From assembly GCA_016742175.1 (NCBI GenBank), contig JACVCH010000005.1:62001-126000 (forward strand): a DNA stretch of 64,000 nt, written 5' to 3'. The notes beneath the pieces are model-generated. The model made no database searches, was not told the origin of the DNA, and worked only from the letters and a program-made list of their open reading frames with translations. The position numbers were made by a program, and so were the translations under genes. This DNA is from Rhizobiaceae bacterium (GTDB lineage Bacteria; Pseudomonadota; Alphaproteobacteria; Rhizobiales; Rhizobiaceae). Positions 19,980-27,536 of the stretch are shown here, in pieces. Each line of letters opens with the position of its first letter. The stretch's first letter is position 1.

Positions 19980-20161
19980 TTGGGTCTCCTTGGGAACCGT
20001 CGTCGAGGCTGATGTGGTGCGGCGCGCTGCCGGCTTCAAGCCGCAGGCAAAAAGGGAATCGCATCGCAAAACCTCAGCACGATTCGGCCCCGCGTTCAAA
20101 CCGAACCGGGGCCGTGTGCAATTTCGACGGTTGCAAACCGGCGCCGAAGCGCCGATCCAGA

Positions 20162-20941
20162 TCAGAACTTCGCGGTCAGCGCCAGGCGCGGGATGATCAC
20201 GTCGTTGCTGAAGTCGTAGCTGATCGTCTCACCGGGGAAGGTCACGTTGTCGACCGCGTCGACCGTCGTGTCGGCGAGATTGGCGTAGAGCGTCTCGAAG
20301 CGCAGGGAGAGGCGGTCGGTCATGCGATATTCGATGCCGACGCTGAGCGCATAGCCGAAGCGCATGCCCGAATCGGACCAGTCCGGGGAGGTATAGCCGA
20401 GCTGGGGCAGGTCGAGCGTGAAGCGGTTGGTGACGTGTCCGGCCGCGACGCCGGCGCTGGCGAAGACCAGCATCCGGTCGAACGCATAGCCCCCGCGTGC
20501 GCGCAGCGTGCCCAGGCCGCCGAACTCGGTCGTATAGCTCGTGTTGGTATCGACGCCGTTGAATATCGGGTTCGGATTGGGGTCGACACGCGAGAAGCTG
20601 TTTCGCACATCTGTCCAGACATAGCCGAAATCGGCTTCGAGGCCGCCGACGAATGCGCCGCTCTGGAAGTTGATGCCGGCAAGCGCGCCGGCCGCCATGC
20701 CGGCCTCGCTCCCGTCGATGCTGGCGGGAAAGAGCCCGTTCTGGACGTCGAGCGTGATCAGCGGCCCGCCGAACGCGCCGCGCTCCGCCCGACCGTTGCT
20801 GACCGCGACGCCGCCGAACGCGCCGAGATAGCCGCCGGACCAGTCCGTCGCGCCTACCGGCGCCTCGGCCGGCCAGTTCATATCGCCGGCCAGGGCAGGC
20901 GAGGCGCACAAGGCGATTGCCAAAGCAGCAACGCGAAGCAT
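20162..20941 (-). CDS. Outer-membrane beta-barrel protein (Omp25/31-like)
   Basis: A 259-residue protein with a signal peptide ([19 protein letters not shown]) followed by the rhizobial eight-strand barrel pattern. The [11 protein letters not shown] start, alternating hydrophobic/aromatic strands, RYEFxxx-like strand ends and a terminal Phe (LALTAKF) are the BAM recognition features. The Omp25/Omp31/RopB-like family is abundant in Hyphomicrobiales; the specific role is unknown. The 268 bases between it and the divergent histidine kinase gene hold both promoters and no gene. Confidence 0.85.
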
Positions 20942-21209
20942 CCGGAAAACTCCCCAAAATTCGGGCGATCGCCGCCCGTGCCCCTAATTCATGTCCGCTC
21001 GATGCTGCCAAAAGATGGATAACGGACGGTTAACGCCTGTGGCCGGTATGCGAGCGGTGGCCGCTTCAGTAGCCGTCAAGCCTTAACTTAATGGAAAGCG
21101 GAAGCCGGTAAGTTGTTGCAAGTCGAAAGGGCAAATTCGAAGCGCGACACTTGGGGCGACATAGTAAACGAGTGGTTGCGTTTCTCGACGGCAGACGGGG
21201 GAAATCGCG

Positions 21210-22643
21210 GTGTTGAAGAAGCTGGCCTCGCGCTATCAGGCGCTGATCGAGTATTTCGTGCCGGATTCGCTGCGCGGCGACCGCGATTCGCTCAACCAGG
21301 CGCGCATGTTCCTGATCAGCCATACGGTGGGGCCGGTCCTCGGCAACTCGGTGCCGCTGGCGCTGTTCTTCTTTGATCCGACGATCGGGTTCGACATTCC
21401 GATCCTTTCGCTGCTGATCACGGCGTTCTGGGTCTATCCCTTCCTATTGAAGCGCGGCTTCGACTACGACAAGCTGGTGCTCGCCTCGGTCGTCAACCTC
21501 AATCTGTGCATCTTCTGGAGTTGCTATTTCAACGGCGGTGTCCTGTCGCCGACCCTGCCGTGGATTCTGATCATCCCGATCCTCTCCTTCTTCTATATCG
21601 GCGGCGTTCGCCGACTGCAGGCGAGGCTTCTCGGAGTGTTCGTGCTGTCCTTCGGCACCTTCCTGGCGTTCTATTTGACGACGAATCCGCCGGTTCAGGA
21701 CATTCCCGACTTGGCGCTGGTCGGGCTCGGCATCGTCTCGACGGTCGCGGCGCTCTGCTATGTCGCGACGATGGCGATCTACTATGCGCGGATCTTCGAT
21801 GCGGGCGTCGAGCTTGAAAACGAGGTGCAGCGCCGCCGCGCGGCGACCGAGGAACTGCGCGGCGCGATCCTGGCCGCCGACGAGGCGAACCACCACAAGG
21901 CCGAATTCCTCGCCCGCATGAGCCACGAGTTGAAGACGCCGCTCAATGCGGTGATCGGCTACGGCCAGATCCTGCGCGACGAAGCCGAGGACAGCCGCGA
22001 TCGCCAGACGCTTGAGGACGTCAACCGTATCCTCGACGCGGGCGCCTATCTGCTGCGTCTGATCAACATCATCCTCGACCTGTCGAAGATCGAGGCGGGC
22101 CGGATGCAGTTCACCGTCTCCGCGCATTCGCTCGGGGGCGTTCTGGACGATGCCGTCGCGGCGATGCGCGAGCAGGCGGAGCGGGCCGGAAACAGCCTTG
22201 GCGTGCGCGCCGACGCCGTCGCGCATTTCGTCGAAACGGACAGGCAGCGGCTGTTGCAGGTCATCGGCGAGATTCTCGACAACGCCGTCACCCATGCGCC
22301 CGGCGTTGCGGTCGAGATCGGCTGCCGGCCGGTGGCGACGGAAAGGGGCGCGGCCTATGCGGTGACGATCCAGGACCGCGGCGCGGGCATCGATCCGGAG
22401 CGTCTCGCGCGGTTGTTCGAAGCCCTGGCCGACAGCCGCGACGCGTCCGCCAGCCGTTATGGCGGCACAGGCCTCAATCTGACCGTCATCAAGAAGCTGG
22501 CCGAAGCACTGGGCTGCGAACTCGGCGTCGAAAGCACGGTCGGCGAGGGAACCTGCTTCACCTTGCAGATTCCACTCGAATGGACGCCCGCGAAGTCGGT
22601 TTCCGAACCCGTCGGCGTCGCCGATGCGTCGCTTGCCGCGTAA
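21210..22643 (+). CDS. Six-helix membrane sensor histidine kinase (first paralogue)
   Basis: A 477-residue kinase with a GTG start. The N-terminal half has six hydrophobic segments (about 31-55, 62-80, 89-110, 115-131, 138-156, 167-196) and no periplasmic domain, HAMP or PAS, so the ligand is probably sensed in the membrane. A short coiled coil leads to HisKA, with phospho-acceptor His239 in SHELKTPLN. HATPase_c follows: N-box EILDNAVTHA, G1 DRGAGID, G2 GGTGLNL. The segment YFNGGVLSPTLPW is shared with the kinase at 24159. The next gene, on the same strand after 138 bases, is an alpha-oxoamine synthase. CqsS and LqsS, receptors for alpha-hydroxyketone signals, have a similar six-helix layout. 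No receiver domain is attached. Confidence 0.88.
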   Translation: MLKKLASRYQALIEYFVPDSLRGDRDSLNQARMFLISHTVGPVLGNSVPLALFFFDPTIGFDIPILSLLITAFWVYPFLLKRGFDYDKLVLASVVNLNLCIFWSCYFNGGVLSPTLPWILIIPILSFFYIGGVRRLQARLLGVFVLSFGTFLAFYLTTNPPVQDIPDLALVGLGIVSTVAALCYVATMAIYYARIFDAGVELENEVQRRRAATEELRGAILAADEANHHKAEFLARMSHELKTPLNAVIGYGQILRDEAEDSRDRQTLEDVNRILDAGAYLLRLINIILDLSKIEAGRMQFTVSAHSLGGVLDDAVAAMREQAERAGNSLGVRADAVAHFVETDRQRLLQVIGEILDNAVTHAPGVAVEIGCRPVATERGAAYAVTIQDRGAGIDPERLARLFEALADSRDASASRYGGTGLNLTVIKKLAEALGCELGVESTVGEGTCFTLQIPLEWTPAKSVSEPVGVADASLAA

Positions 22644-22781
22644 CGTCATGCGGCAGGTCTTCGGCATTGGCTCGTTATTAACCAACGCCAAAGTCAAGAA
22701 GTAGGCGTCAAGTCGTTTTAACTCTCTTTTATTTGAAGTGATGCAGATTGTCAGCAACCAACAAGCACAGCGGGGGCTGAC

Positions 22782-24122
22782 ATGAAAAACTACATGACAA
22801 TTGATGGCGTGCCGGCTGCGGCGCTCGAAGGAAGCATGCGCGACTTTCGCGTTCTCGAAGGCGTCGATCTTCTGGCGCGCTGCAACGCCTTCCACGAATG
22901 GCAGGACACGCGCCGCCACTCCGGTACCTGGCCGTTCTCGCGCGCCACGGAAACGGGCCCGGCGGCAAGCTGCGCGGTGCGCGACGACCGCGGCAATCTG
23001 TGCACCGGCGTCAACTTCGCCTCGCAGGACTATCTGAGCCTGTCCTCGCACCCGGCGGTGCTGGAAGCGGCCAAGGCGGCGATCGACGAGTTTGGCGTCC
23101 ATTCGGCCGGTTCGCCCGCGCTCGTCGGCAACACCTCCATCTCGGTCGCGCTCGAAGATCGTCTGGCGCGCTTCCTGAAGATGAAGGAAGCGGTATTGTT
23201 TCCCACCGGATGGGCCGCCGGCTTCGGTGTCATCAAGGGTCTCGTCCGCTCGCACGACTACATCGTCATGGACGCCCTGGCGCATGCCTGCCTGCAGGTC
23301 GGCGCACAAGCCGCGACGCGCAACGTCGTCCTCTTCCGCCATCTCGACGTCGAACATTGCCGCACGCGCCTTCAGGACATCCGCAAGCGCGATCCCAAGG
23401 CCGGCATCATGATCGTCACCGAGGGCCTGTTCTCGATGGACAGCGACACGCCTGACCTCGGCGCGATGCAGGCGCTGGCGCATGAATTCGGCGCGGTGCT
23501 GATGGTCGACGTCGCCCATGATCTGGGCTGCCTCGGCGAGGACGGCACCGGCCATATCGGCATCCAGGACATGCTGGGCAAGGTCGATCTGGTGATGGGC
23601 AGCTTCTCCAAGACCTTCGGCTCGAATGGCGGCTTCGTCGCCACCAATTCGCGGGCGGTGAAGGAATATCTGCGCTTCTATTCGCCGAGCTGCACCTTCT
23701 CCAACGCCCTGTCGCCGGCGCAGGTGGCGACCATCACCAAGGCGCTCGACATCGTCGAATCGTCCGAGGGCGCGGTGCTGCGCGGCAGGCTGATGCACAA
23801 CATCCTGGCGCTGCGGGCCGGCATCCGCGAGCGCGGCATGGATTGCTATGGCGATCCGTCGGCGATCGTGGCCGTGAAGACCGGCGACGAGGCGCTCGCC
23901 CGCATGACCGCGCGGGCCCTGCCCGAGCTCGGCCTGATCTCGAACCTCGTCGAGTTCCCGGCCGTCGGCAAGGGTCTGGCGCGCTTCCGCCTGCAGGTCA
24001 TGGCCGGCCACACCGACGCCGAGATCACGGCGGCCGCCGACCGCATGAAAGCGGCGATGCAGCTCGGCCAGGCCCGGCTCGACGCCGGCTACGATCAGAC
24101 GGAAACGCGCCTGGCGGGCTGA
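22782..24122 (+). CDS. Alpha-oxoamine synthase (CqsA/LqsA or palmitoyltransferase-like)
   Basis: A 446-residue PLP fold-type I enzyme of the alpha-oxoamine synthase family, which condenses an amino acid with an acyl-CoA. The PLP lysine is K277 in MGSFSKTFGSNGG. The PLP-stacking His region (DALAHACLQVG) and the Asp/His motif (VDVAHDLG, where most members have VDEAHS) are present. Relatives include 8-amino-7-oxononanoate synthase, KBL, serine palmitoyltransferase and the CqsA/LqsA autoinducer synthases. No biotin, haem or sphingolipid genes are near; it lies between two sensor kinases. A run of G lies 6 bases before the ATG. I infer synthesis of a lipid-like ketone or aminoketone; the substrates cannot be read from sequence. 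Confidence 0.8.
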   Translation: MKNYMTIDGVPAAALEGSMRDFRVLEGVDLLARCNAFHEWQDTRRHSGTWPFSRATETGPAASCAVRDDRGNLCTGVNFASQDYLSLSSHPAVLEAAKAAIDEFGVHSAGSPALVGNTSISVALEDRLARFLKMKEAVLFPTGWAAGFGVIKGLVRSHDYIVMDALAHACLQVGAQAATRNVVLFRHLDVEHCRTRLQDIRKRDPKAGIMIVTEGLFSMDSDTPDLGAMQALAHEFGAVLMVDVAHDLGCLGEDGTGHIGIQDMLGKVDLVMGSFSKTFGSNGGFVATNSRAVKEYLRFYSPSCTFSNALSPAQVATITKALDIVESSEGAVLRGRLMHNILALRAGIRERGMDCYGDPSAIVAVKTGDEALARMTARALPELGLISNLVEFPAVGKGLARFRLQVMAGHTDAEITAAADRMKAAMQLGQARLDAGYDQTETRLAG

Positions 24123-24158
24123 GACGACGAGGCGCGCGATTTTTCGGGGGAAAGCCAG

Positions 24159-25580
24159 ATGCGCTCGATGACGGATAACTGGATCATCAACTCGTTCATT
24201 CCAGGTGCGGTGCTCAACAGCCGCACCGGACTGGAAATGGCGCGGATCTTCGTCTTCACGCACCTGGCCGGCCCGCTGATCGCGCAGCCGATGGGCATCT
24301 TCCTCTATGTCGTCTCGCCGCAGATGACGCCGCAACTGGCCATCATGGTCGCCGGCATCAATTCCTTCCTCCTGTTGCCGATCGTCCTGAAGATGACGGG
24401 CAGCATGCAGCTCGCCACACTCCTGTCGTTCCAGGGGCTGACGGCGCTGTCGCTGTTCGGGACCTATTTCTACGGCGGGTTCACCTCGCCCTTCCTGCCA
24501 TGGCTGATCATCAGCCTTCTCCTGGGGCTCTTCTACCTTTCCAAGCGCCTCAAGCTGGTGCTCGGCCTGTTCGGCGCCAATCTGGGGGTGTTCCTCGCCT
24601 GCGTCTGGCAGTTGGGCCTGCCCAACGACATTGCCGCGCAGGACCTGCGCGCCCTCGTCTGGCTGTCGATCACCGCCGCCACGGTCTACATGACCTGGAT
24701 GGCGCTCTACTACGCCCGCGTCATGGCGCTGCGCACAGAGCTGCAGACCGAGGCCGACCGCTACCGGCACACCGTGCTCGAACTCGAACGCACGCGCGAG
24801 ATCGCCGAGCGGGCCAACCGCAACCGGTCGGTCTTCTTCGCCAAGATGAGCCACGAATTGCGCACGCCGCTCAACGTCATCATCGGCTATTCGGAAATCC
24901 TCCTCGAGGACTGCGCCGACCAGCCGGGCGGCAGCGGCCAGAAGGCGCAGGACCTTGCCCGCATCAACGCGGCCGGCAAGCACCTGCTCGCGCTTGTCTC
25001 CGAAGTGCTCGACACCGAATCCGTCGAGAAGAACGTGCAGGGGGTGGAGATCACCGAATTCAGGCTGGGCGATCTGTGCGACGACGTCGTCGCCAACGCC
25101 TATCCGATCGTGAACAACAATTCGAGCCGCCTCGTGGTCGACTGCCCCGTGCGCTCCGAAATGCTTCGCACCGACCGCACAAAGGTCGCGCAGATCCTGA
25201 TCAATCTTCTGGGCAATGCGGGCAAGTTCACCAAGTCCGGAACCGTCACGCTCACGCTGCATGTGGAGAAGTCGATCGCCGACGATCGCCTCATCGCCAG
25301 CGTCAGCGACACCGGCATCGCGCCCGAGGCGCTGTCCAAGCTGTTCGAGAACTACATCCAGGCGGACGCGACCATCTCATCGCGCTTCGGCGGCACGGGC
25401 ATGGGCCTCGCGATCACGCGCAAGTTCTGCTCGCTTCTGGGCGGAGAGATTGACGTGAAGAGCAAGCTCGGCGAAGGATCGACCTTCACGGTCGATATTC
25501 CCGCTCGTCTTGCAGCCAGGGCGAAGAATGAAGAAATCAGCGAAGTCGTCATGCCGGGATTACCGAAGGTGGCGGCTTAA
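24159..25580 (+). CDS. Six-helix membrane sensor histidine kinase (second paralogue)
   Basis: A 473-residue kinase built like the one at 21210. It has six hydrophobic segments (about 27-53, 58-80, 83-108, 111-126, 131-152, 165-192) and the shared motif YFYGGFTSPFLPW. A coiled coil leads to HisKA with His232 in SHELRTPLNVIIGY, then HATPase_c (LLGNAGKF, DTGIAPE, GGTGMGLAIT). It starts 36 bases after the oxoamine synthase stop, so cotranscription is likely. The REC-GGDEF-EAL gene follows after 87 bases and is a natural phosphotransfer partner. The two kinases differ enough to suggest different ligands or a heteromer rather than a recent duplication. Confidence 0.88.
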   Translation: MRSMTDNWIINSFIPGAVLNSRTGLEMARIFVFTHLAGPLIAQPMGIFLYVVSPQMTPQLAIMVAGINSFLLLPIVLKMTGSMQLATLLSFQGLTALSLFGTYFYGGFTSPFLPWLIISLLLGLFYLSKRLKLVLGLFGANLGVFLACVWQLGLPNDIAAQDLRALVWLSITAATVYMTWMALYYARVMALRTELQTEADRYRHTVLELERTREIAERANRNRSVFFAKMSHELRTPLNVIIGYSEILLEDCADQPGGSGQKAQDLARINAAGKHLLALVSEVLDTESVEKNVQGVEITEFRLGDLCDDVVANAYPIVNNNSSRLVVDCPVRSEMLRTDRTKVAQILINLLGNAGKFTKSGTVTLTLHVEKSIADDRLIASVSDTGIAPEALSKLFENYIQADATISSRFGGTGMGLAITRKFCSLLGGEIDVKSKLGEGSTFTVDIPARLAARAKNEEISEVVMPGLPKVAA

Positions 25581-25667
25581 TAGTCTGGAAACAAAGTAAC
25601 GCGTAGTATGTATTCGGGGTTTACGCGATCTGACAAAAGATCGTGACGTTCGGTCGGGGTGGGCCAG

Positions 25668-27536
25668 ATGAGCATTGCAAGCAACATCCTCACGCAGGAG
25701 TTCGCGCGGGACGATCAACCGGCGGTGACCGCGAAACCGCGGATTCTCGTCGTCGATGACGTGGCCGACAATCGCGAGATCCTGACTCGACGTCTCGTCC
25801 GACGCGATTTCGAGGTGGTCGAGGCTTCGGGCGGGCTGGAGGCACTTGCCTGCATCGAAGCGGAACAGTTCGACATCGTCCTTCTCGACATCATGATGCC
25901 CGACATGTCCGGCAACGAAGTCCTGCGCACCTTGCGCGGCCGGTTCGACGAAACCAGCCTGCCGGTGATCATGGTCACCGCCAAGAGCCAGAGCGAGGAC
26001 GTCGTCGAAAGTCTCGGACTCGGCGCCAACGACTACATCACCAAGCCCGTCGACTTCGCGGTCGCGGTCGCGCGCATCAACGCGCAGCTCGAGCGCAGCA
26101 AGCTCGCGAACGCCGACCGCCTCGCCCGCCTGTCGCTGGAAAAGGCGTCGCGCAGGCTGGACGAGCGGCTGGAGAAGACGGAGCAGCAGCTTCATGAAGA
26201 GGCGCATCTGCGCTCGGTCTCGGAAGACCGCCTGCGCTACCTCGCCTACCACGACCCGCTGACCAACCTCATGAACCGGCAGGGCTTCCGGGATTCGCTC
26301 TATCAGGTCCTGGACCAGATTCCGGTGACCGACCGCGAGCCCGTCCTGCTCTTCATCGATCTCGATGGCTTCAAGGCCGTCAACGACACCTATGGTCACG
26401 ACGTCGGCGACAAGCTTCTGGCGCAGTTCGGCAAGCGCCTGGTCGAGCAGTTGCCGGCGGGCGCGCCCGCGGCCCGGCTCGGCGGCGACGAATTCGCGCT
26501 CGTCATCGACGTCGAATCGACCGAGGCCGATCTTCGCGCGCTGGCCGAGAACCTGGTCGAAACCCTGTCCGCGCCCTTCAGCATCGACGGCAAGCCGATC
26601 CGCGTCGGCGTAAGCTGCGGTGCCGCCTGGGCGCGCTGCTTCACCGGCGATCTCGACGGCCTCGTCAAGGCGGCGGACCTTGCCATGTACCGCGCCAAGA
26701 GCAAGGGCACGGGCGGCGTCGTCCTGTTCGAGACGCACATGCTGGAAGAACAGCACCAGCGCCGCCTGCTCGAGCAGGATTTCCGCCTCGCCGTCTCGAC
26801 GATGCAGTTCGAAGTCTTCTACCAGCCGATCGTCGACGTGCGCACGCGCGACACCATCGCCTTCGAAGCGCTCCTGCGCTGGCCGCATCCGACGCGCGGC
26901 ATGATATCGCCGGAGATCTTCATCCCGATCGCCGAGCGCACGAACCTCATCGCGCAGATCGGCGCCTGGGCGCTGCGGCAAGCCTGCCAGCAGGCGACGC
27001 AATGGCCCGACCACATCTCCGTCTCGGTCAATCTGTCGCCGATCCAGTTCGAGAATCCGGCGCTGCTGTCGACCCTGATCAACACGCTCGCGACGACCGG
27101 CCTCGCGCCGCACAGGCTGGAACTGGAGATCACCGAATCCGCACTTCTCGGCGCCGAGGGCCGCAACATCAAGATGCTCGAGGCGATCCGCGAACTTGGC
27201 GTCCGGATATCGATCGACGATTTCGGCACCGGCTATTCGTCGCTCGCCTATCTGCAGAATTTCCGCTTCGACAAGATCAAGATCGACAAGCGCTTCATCC
27301 AGAAACTCGACAACAGCGACTCCGACGCGGCGATCGTGCGCTCGATCCTCCTGCTCGGCGAGACGATCGGCATTCCGACGACGGCCGAAGGCATCGAGAC
27401 CGAAATCCAGCTTGCGTCGGTGATGGACCATGGCTGTCGGCAGGGACAGGGGTACCTCTTCAGCAGGCCGATGACCGCCGACGATGTCGACCGTTTCATC
27501 GCCCGCAACGAGCGCCCGTCCCCGCTCGCGCAGTAA
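25668..27536 (+). CDS. Response regulator with GGDEF and EAL domains (REC-GGDEF-EAL)
   Basis: A 622-residue c-di-GMP enzyme. The receiver domain (about 25-140) has phospho-acceptor D74 in VLLDIMMPD and the conserved Lys in ITKPVD. A coiled coil (150-185) follows. The GGDEF domain has an intact motif at 272-276 but no RxxD inhibitory site before it. The EAL domain starts with EALLRW at 400 and keeps VNLSP, EITES, DDFGTG, KIDKRF, EGIET and QGYLFSRP, so phosphodiesterase activity is expected. The ATG at 25668 is chosen over a GTG at 25659; support is modest. It is the last gene of the kinase/synthase block and its probable output. Confidence 0.9.
   Translation: MSIASNILTQEFARDDQPAVTAKPRILVVDDVADNREILTRRLVRRDFEVVEASGGLEALACIEAEQFDIVLLDIMMPDMSGNEVLRTLRGRFDETSLPVIMVTAKSQSEDVVESLGLGANDYITKPVDFAVAVARINAQLERSKLANADRLARLSLEKASRRLDERLEKTEQQLHEEAHLRSVSEDRLRYLAYHDPLTNLMNRQGFRDSLYQVLDQIPVTDREPVLLFIDLDGFKAVNDTYGHDVGDKLLAQFGKRLVEQLPAGAPAARLGGDEFALVIDVESTEADLRALAENLVETLSAPFSIDGKPIRVGVSCGAAWARCFTGDLDGLVKAADLAMYRAKSKGTGGVVLFETHMLEEQHQRRLLEQDFRLAVSTMQFEVFYQPIVDVRTRDTIAFEALLRWPHPTRGMISPEIFIPIAERTNLIAQIGAWALRQACQQATQWPDHISVSVNLSPIQFENPALLSTLINTLATTGLAPHRLELEITESALLGAEGRNIKMLEAIRELGVRISIDDFGTGYSSLAYLQNFRFDKIKIDKRFIQKLDNSDSDAAIVRSILLLGETIGIPTTAEGIETEIQLASVMDHGCRQGQGYLFSRPMTADDVDRFIARNERPSPLAQ

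Follow-up and report, generated by a model that had tools for sequence, protein, structure and literature searches.

A 64,000-nucleotide stretch of the Rhizobiaceae bacterium assembly GCA_016742175.1 (contig JACVCH010000005.1, positions 62,001 to 126,000; here called the window) encodes a pyridoxal phosphate (PLP)-dependent alpha-oxoamine synthase (AOS) flanked by two sensor histidine kinases, which poses the question whether this enzyme produces a signal that its neighbours perceive. A sequence-only reading had likened the locus to CqsA/CqsS of Vibrio and LqsA/LqsS of Legionella and proposed two receptors with a direct cyclic di-GMP (c-di-GMP) output. Our analysis supports this interpretation as a hypothesis: the system would work in a CqsA/CqsS-like manner, but it falls outside the Cqs and Lqs families by the tests made. 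We estimate a probability of about 0.7 that the genes form a self-contained signal synthase/receptor circuit with direct c-di-GMP output, for which we infer product, ligand, phosphotransfer and the direction of the c-di-GMP change. Gene content, conservation, the synthase clade and the predicted sensor fold were observed directly.

All four genes are located on the plus strand. The kinases HK1 (21210–22643; 477 amino acids, GTG start) and HK2 (24159–25580; 473 amino acids) scored 63.3 and 55.6 bits against Pfam HisKA and 81.1 and 78.9 bits against HATPase_c, respectively. Each carries a six-transmembrane sensor domain (21255–21830 and 24186–24740); the two domains are 31% identical and belong to the same family according to their alignment. 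The proposed signal synthase AOS (22782–24122; 446 amino acids; Aminotran_1_2, 147.3 bits) lies between them, and HK2 is followed by a response regulator of the REC-GGDEF-EAL type (25659–27536; 625 amino acids; REC 98.6, GGDEF 129.2 and EAL 248.5 bits). The Pfam matches of all four open reading frames (ORFs) exceed the respective cut-offs, and the intergenic gaps measure 138, 36 and 78 bases. ORF coordinates and Pfam assignments thus agree with the arrangement first described, a synthase between two six-helix kinases and ahead of the c-di-GMP regulator, on one strand with short gaps. The genome (4.30 Mb in 34 contigs, 96% complete) contains two six-helix domains at E <= 1e-10, both at this locus.

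The family to which the window belongs, represented by 297 genomes, was examined for co-occurrence of synthase and sensor with thresholds of E <= 1e-60 for AOS and E <= 1e-10 for the six-helix domain. AOS was detected in 43 and the domain in 33 of these genomes; 32 genomes contained both, one (81% complete) only the domain, 11 only AOS and 253 neither (Fisher p 2e-32). As the genomes are related, the count was repeated at genus level, where 20 genera had both, none the domain only, six AOS only and 83 neither (p 6e-17). Most domain matches in the family genomes (37/43) were found within 8 kb of an AOS. Of the other six, four were located in AOS-bearing genomes but on separate contigs, and one shares its contig with an AOS at a distance of 65 kb; the last belongs to G239, a genome lacking any AOS match.

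Two sets of loci were compared. A scan of named genomes returned 362 relatives of AOS, the best 80 of which were kept, and 40 family loci were fetched with a weighting towards a branch about 53% identical; nine contigs, matched by length, occur in both sets (e.g. L109/L039 and L131/L047), so that the counts are not independent. Within 9 kb of AOS, the named loci contained two six-helix domains in 52 cases, one in eight, three in one and none in 19, and the family loci two in six, one in 21 and none in 13. L109 and L111–L118 have their genes in the same order as the window, HK1-AOS-HK2-REC-GGDEF-EAL (L118 without the GGDEF part in view), and L110 displays HK1-AOS only; L117 and L115 derive from Aureimonas or Fulvimarina strains. 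An alternative order consists of a head-to-head kinase pair with a REC gene before AOS, for example in Bradyrhizobium (L136), Sphingomonas (L159) and Phenylobacterium (L146). A third one, REC-AOS-HK-HK-REC-GGDEF-EAL, was found in L181, L186 and L188, and two of these three loci bear the name Burkholderiales or Burkholderiaceae. The linkage of AOS and six-helix domain outlasts gene rearrangement, and the predicted conservation of the gene set is borne out by the same domain in 61 of the 80 named loci and by parts kept in several gene orders. Its description as rhizobial fits the occurrence in Hyphomicrobiales but is too narrow, as members also occur in Sphingomonadales, Caulobacterales and Burkholderiales, and Mycobacterium has synthases that stand alone.

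A kinase H-box was present within 1.5 kb of AOS in 36 of 68 named and six of 35 family loci with enough flanking sequence; in most family loci the kinase is about 2.7 kb away. None of the 83 BioF/KBL/serine palmitoyltransferase (SPT)/ALAS-type matches fetched, a number including repeat matches to the same genes, had such a neighbour, which argues that the gene set is more than a chance assembly. The same strict test detected 3/15 CqsA/LqsA loci, whose kinases lie beyond the flank or have other H-boxes.

NCBIfam assigns AOS to the alpha-oxoamine synthase superfamily, below the curated cut-off of every model listed. The best model was BioF (TIGR00858; 279 bits, cut-off 426), followed by KBL models (226–247 bits; TIGR01822 225.9, cut-off 493), the SPT models NF047599, NF047600 and NF047603 (244.7, 240.8 and 195.3 bits; cut-offs 500, 640 and 670), ALAS (TIGR01821; 187.6 bits, cut-off 338.55) and CqsA/LqsA (NF005526; 172.3 bits, cut-off 428). 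The closest solved relative is KBL (1fc4, 191 bits). The careful tree comprised 77 rows and united AOS with 38 relatives in a clade of their own with 100/100 support; CqsA/LqsA, KBL, ALAS and SPT each formed separate 100/100 clades, and BioF was not monophyletic. This tree leaves out six rows that the quick tree kept (L140, a wrong ORF, and L095, L247, L075, L251 and L207). The best tree groups AOS with CqsA at a support of 19/9, so that the deep branching order and the sister group of AOS are not settled; approximately unbiased (AU) tests rejected neither AOS+BioF (p 0.41) nor AOS+SPT (p 0.38). K277, H168, D243, H246 and R403 are common to all groups of the superfamily and identical in the 39 AOS and 15 CqsA rows of the alignment. 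We take K277 to be the PLP lysine and the others to be the catalytic His, Asp and Arg residues of these enzymes. Q82 is invariant in the 39 AOS rows, whereas the 38 rows outside this clade, with a single exception, have Asn at this position. H107 is likewise invariant, and His is not among the four commonest CqsA letters, the only ones displayed. By sequence, AOS thus belongs to a separate clade and is not a BioF, KBL, SPT, ALAS or CqsA/LqsA enzyme. The sequence-only reading, which had made its proposal depend on placement outside BioF and the sphingolipid enzymes, is upheld by the phylogeny, with the qualification that a sister grouping with BioF or SPT is not rejected.

These data also bear on another explanation, namely that AOS takes the place of a housekeeping enzyme the genome lacks (BioF, KBL, ALAS or SPT) and that the kinases are adjacent for another reason. 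The profile search detected no BioF above cut-off in the window genome, and the best NCBIfam model and the AU test point in the same direction. No SPT exceeded the NF047599 cut-off either (NF047600 and NF047603 were not searched there). Against such a role, the genome encodes its own KBL (645.9 bits) and ALAS (668.8 bits) elsewhere, and the 100/100 clade and the conserved kinase linkage also speak against it. Furthermore, no biotin synthase was detected above cut-off (bioB 37.7 bits versus 225; bioA and bioD were not searched), which makes a BioF role less credible. We regard this explanation as very improbable.

The N-terminus of HK1 was modelled with a mean predicted local distance difference test (pLDDT) value of 94.5 and seven DSSP helices, the first two consecutive; read from this helix list, it is predicted to comprise six membrane helices. 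The H, N, G1 and G2 boxes of HK1 are all recognisable in the alignment. Of the 147 domain copies in the loci, 131 precede a strict kinase H-box and 11 a variant one, five of the latter being HisKA+HATPase_c proteins by Pfam (L119, L120, L144, L156 and one of L185). Three copies (L069–L071, one genus) are fused straight to GGDEF-EAL beside AOS, and two stop-interrupted copies represent one contig seen twice (L043/L113). At that locus (2–916) the stop codon breaks HK1, and the AOS and HK2 ORFs are open.

The only clear fold match of the HK1 domain in the PDB was the adenylyl cyclase Rv1625c/Cya (7yzk; Foldseek probability 1.00, TMq 0.65). Inhibition of Rv1625c by C18 mono-unsaturated fatty acids reportedly depends on its membrane domain (PMC12505454), for which the six-helix region of CqsS can substitute, conferring control by CAI-1 (PMC4821796). 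A PDB sequence search with the six-helix domain returned nothing meaningful. Identity with a known Pfam sensor was considered and discarded, since 91 six-helix domains gave weak matches only (MASE6 in 5/91, best E 0.033; MASE7 in one, E 0.0074). Sequence homology to CqsS/LqsS was likewise rejected, as neither a profile of 117 sequences nor an enlarged one nor the subset linked to CqsA exceeded 1% probability, and cross-matches of profile hidden Markov models gave no hit at E <= 10 in either direction. The architecture is nevertheless that of CqsS/LqsS, with six helices, as judged from the model, followed by HisKA-HATPase_c and encoded beside a gene of the AOS superfamily.

The strongest single argument that the window kinases sense an AOS product came from loci in which the same sensor family adjoins CqsA/LqsA-type synthases. 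A domain-first search of 385 alphaproteobacterial genomes yielded 10 positives at E <= 1e-8, including the window's, and 17 domain-bearing regions were fetched, one of them from the family genome G239. Two regions (L334 and L335) contained a window-type AOS. In three others (L338, L339 and L341 from G845, G1003 and G682), the domain-bearing kinase is divergent from a synthase above the CqsA/LqsA cut-off of 428 bits (460.7, 452.5 and 489.3), and these synthases nest inside the CqsA clade of a further quick tree. By blastp, the L338 sensor is 29% identical to that of HK1 over 185 amino acids (E 6.6e-25) and the L341 sensor 34% over 188 amino acids (E 1e-30). G845 and G1003 hold both kinds of locus. 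One sensor family thus occurs beside two clades of the AOS superfamily, one of which is a known ketone-autoinducer synthase family. In L341, a PAS-kinase-REC hybrid adjoins the synthase. We found no description of a CqsA/LqsA-family synthase paired with a six-helix kinase of non-CqsS type in Alphaproteobacteria in the open-access literature. A separate region, L336 (G940), contains a six-helix hybrid kinase and then a single-domain REC next to genes that look riboflavin-type by eye, with no AOS in the region.

This pairing could also mean that the window encodes a divergent true member of the CqsA/CqsS (LqsA/LqsS) group that co-descended with its receptor, an explanation that overlaps functionally with the signalling circuit proposed here. 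The common synthase superfamily, the six-helix kinase, the three CqsA-type pairings and the best tree, which puts AOS and CqsA on one side of a branch, are in line with it. The support for that branch is just 19/9, the AOS scored only 172 bits against the CqsA/LqsA model, and hhalign did not detect homology of the receptors, so that we judge true membership to be decidedly unlikely. The initial comparison with Cqs and Lqs therefore stands for superfamily, kinase layout and the occurrence of the same sensor beside CqsA-type synthases, but neither protein is a member of these families by sequence.

A lipid-homeostasis function was weighed as well, in which AOS makes or remodels a sphingolipid-like membrane aminolipid and the kinases adjust c-di-GMP in response to fatty acids or that lipid within the producing cell. 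In its fold, the sensor comes closest to a membrane domain mediating fatty-acid inhibition (PMC12505454), the superfamily includes SPT, and AOS+SPT was not rejected (AU p 0.38). In addition, in three Mycobacterium loci that were read, AOS lies beside patatin-like proteins, named by eye, without kinases. In the part of the loci read, however, no other lipid-pathway gene was seen by eye to recur; AOS forms its own clade with family-only residues, and the same sensor family partners signal synthases of the CqsA/LqsA type. A function in lipid homeostasis appears unlikely to us.

The REC-GGDEF-EAL protein as output of the signalling circuit contains the receiver Asp motif and the GGDEF and EAL signature motifs and lacks the inhibitory I-site RxxD, as judged by a motif check; because the former are intact and the latter is absent, control in either direction is possible. 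A GGDEF protein with an EAL-like motif, identified by regular expression, was present within 9 kb of AOS in 35/80 named loci, every one of which also has a six-helix domain, and in 26/40 family loci, 24 of them with the domain. In L152, L121 and L185, a histidine kinase containing REC holds the position occupied elsewhere by this GGDEF protein. In the relatives with the fusions described above, the proposed receptor would itself be the c-di-GMP enzyme.

Several results weigh against the proposed circuit. HK2 lacks two residues (six bases) of the ATP-binding G1 box that are present in nine aligned HK2 orthologues, and the circuit of this strain may therefore be impaired; the gap may stem from an error in sequencing or from a loss, or the kinase may work in another way. 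The Foldseek E-value of the Rv1625c match was just 0.032, and hhalign comparison of the six-helix domain with CqsS/LqsS gave a probability of 0.2% (E 0.35; 0.6% with the enlarged set). The 19 named AOS loci without a six-helix domain comprise eight from Mycobacterium, four from Methylobacterium, L145, L157, L182 and four contigs below 6 kb; the domain is also missing from 11 of the 43 AOS-bearing family genomes, in one of which the locus is visible on a contig of 3.2 kb. Conversely, no AOS was found in 12 of the 17 domain-bearing regions, five of which are under 9 kb. As to the output, a single-domain REC follows HK1 in many relatives, and no GGDEF-EAL protein was detected in the CqsA-linked regions L338, L339 and L341, where one 232-amino-acid ORF of L338 has a bare GGDEF motif. 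The latter suggests that c-di-GMP output belongs to window-type loci. Since single-domain RECs are common and GGDEF/EAL proteins occur in only part of the loci, c-di-GMP output is not universal. The two receptors originally proposed are the rule in the named loci, exactly two domains being found in most of them, but the c-di-GMP output is not.

The circuit we favour would operate as follows. As its superfamily and the conserved catalytic residues suggest, AOS would catalyse the condensation of an acyl thioester and an amine substrate, either an alpha-amino acid or a similar compound, and release a lipophilic product, probably of the amino- or hydroxy-ketone type. This product would exit the cell, perhaps via a neighbouring outer-membrane barrel, and be perceived within the membrane, where the six-helix domains of HK1 and HK2 would act as its sensors, a step to which the near-exclusive linkage, the fold and the CqsA-linked relatives point. 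Both kinases may then alter phosphorylation of the REC-GGDEF-EAL receiver, in agreement with gene order and the transmembrane-GGDEF-EAL fusions of relatives. The c-di-GMP level would thus be adjusted directly, without an intervening transcription factor.

The candidate barrel gene, omp (20162–20941, minus strand; Pfam OMP_b-brl, 39.8 bits), encodes a small outer-membrane beta-barrel, is divergent from HK1 and lies outside the interval of the sequence-only reading. A homologue accompanies AOS, at a distance of up to 9 kb, in 28 of the 80 named loci and 25 of the 40 family loci. Its model (pLDDT 90) resembles generic small barrels of the OmpA and OmpW types and a sequence search of the PDB gave no match, so that no transport role is proven. 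Outer-membrane proteins in four AOS loci examined were of the OmpW type (L047 6109–6765, L152 12836–13480 and L159 11504–12787) and the FadL type (L185 6263–7651). OmpW and FadL let hydrophobic compounds through, and such neighbours count in favour of the proposed circuit.

Four congeners of the window strain contain neither AOS nor the six-helix domain in the family genome searches. The region from trpA to trxA is common to the window and these congeners (84–91% DNA identity) and is followed in the congeners by other genes. The stretch after trxA (window 20100–27536 versus L323–L326) looks variable, since the gene lists of L323, L325 and L326 differ from the window and from each other. The flanking genes trpA, accD, folC and trxA had no matches across the 40 family loci, and SMP-30 had one (37%, L048). 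Base composition did not support a recent acquisition, the G+C content of the genes (0.627–0.668) being no outlier from the surroundings (0.654–0.670), and no inverted repeats of at least 12 bases were detected in 20050–21300 or 22600–22830.

Lone synthases of the AOS clade, 60–64% identical and without a six-helix kinase, are found in Mycobacterium (L169, L172, L174, L175, L178, L179, L180 and L184); in L172, L174 and L178, the three loci read, AOS adjoins the patatin-like genes. Two Mycobacterium AOS rows nest among alphaproteobacterial ones in the quick tree, which suggests transfer. In L182 (Pseudomonas sp. H9), AOS is split across two ORFs, with no six-helix kinase nearby.

Ketone autoinducers have so far been worked out in a few relatives of Vibrio, Legionella and Janthinobacterium, and a parallel family in four orders would open a large part of bacterial communication. 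The balance of evidence tips slightly towards a second widespread oxoamine-synthase signalling family. Such a family would have a synthase clade to itself, in most cases two receptors for each synthase, direct c-di-GMP output and a six-helix lipid-receptor domain that also occurs in CqsA-type loci but is unrelated to CqsS/LqsS by sequence. If this holds true, its product would add a third class to the signals that c-di-GMP systems perceive directly, and synthase and receptor modules may have been swapped among AOS-based circuits. Direct c-di-GMP coupling would provide an immediate measurable output such as attachment or motility. The receptor fold, moreover, ties the system to membrane domains of adenylyl cyclases, whose receptor role is a long-standing question.

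A window-type synthase/receptor system was not found described in the open-access literature, a scope that excludes most subscription papers and bioRxiv. CqsA/CqsS (Vibrio), LqsA/LqsS/LqsR (Legionella) and JqsA/JqsS/JqsR (Janthinobacterium) likewise combine a synthase of the AOS superfamily with an adjoining multi-helix membrane histidine kinase, and the kinases of all 15 sampled loci above the CqsA/LqsA cut-off share a common N-terminal membrane region. The described clusters have one kinase, in contrast to two in the window, and their output proceeds by a hybrid receiver or an LqsR-type regulator instead of REC-GGDEF-EAL. Their synthase belongs to a different clade and their sensor has no detectable kinship to the window domain. 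The genera named for such clusters in PMC3376566 and PMC3566124 are gamma- and betaproteobacterial. The loci of G845, G1003 and G682 share the sensor family, the histidine kinase and the orientation divergent from an AOS-superfamily synthase with the window family; they differ from the window in that their synthase is of the CqsA/LqsA family, that they have one six-helix kinase and that no GGDEF-EAL protein was found in the regions. Rv1625c/Cya shares the six-helix fold, and its output is cAMP via a fused cyclase, unlike that of the window kinases. We know of no synthase partner for this protein. It is described as a membrane receptor of lipophilic ligands (PMC12505454, PMC4821796). On the output side, BDSF and AI-2 are quorum signals with direct evidence of sensing by c-di-GMP enzymes (PMC8846402). 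BDSF/RpfR and AI-2/rpHK1S-Z16 thus couple a cell-cell signal directly to c-di-GMP turnover, as proposed for the window, but with fatty-acid or AI-2 signals, PAS9 or dCACHE_1 sensors and other synthases (PMC8846402).

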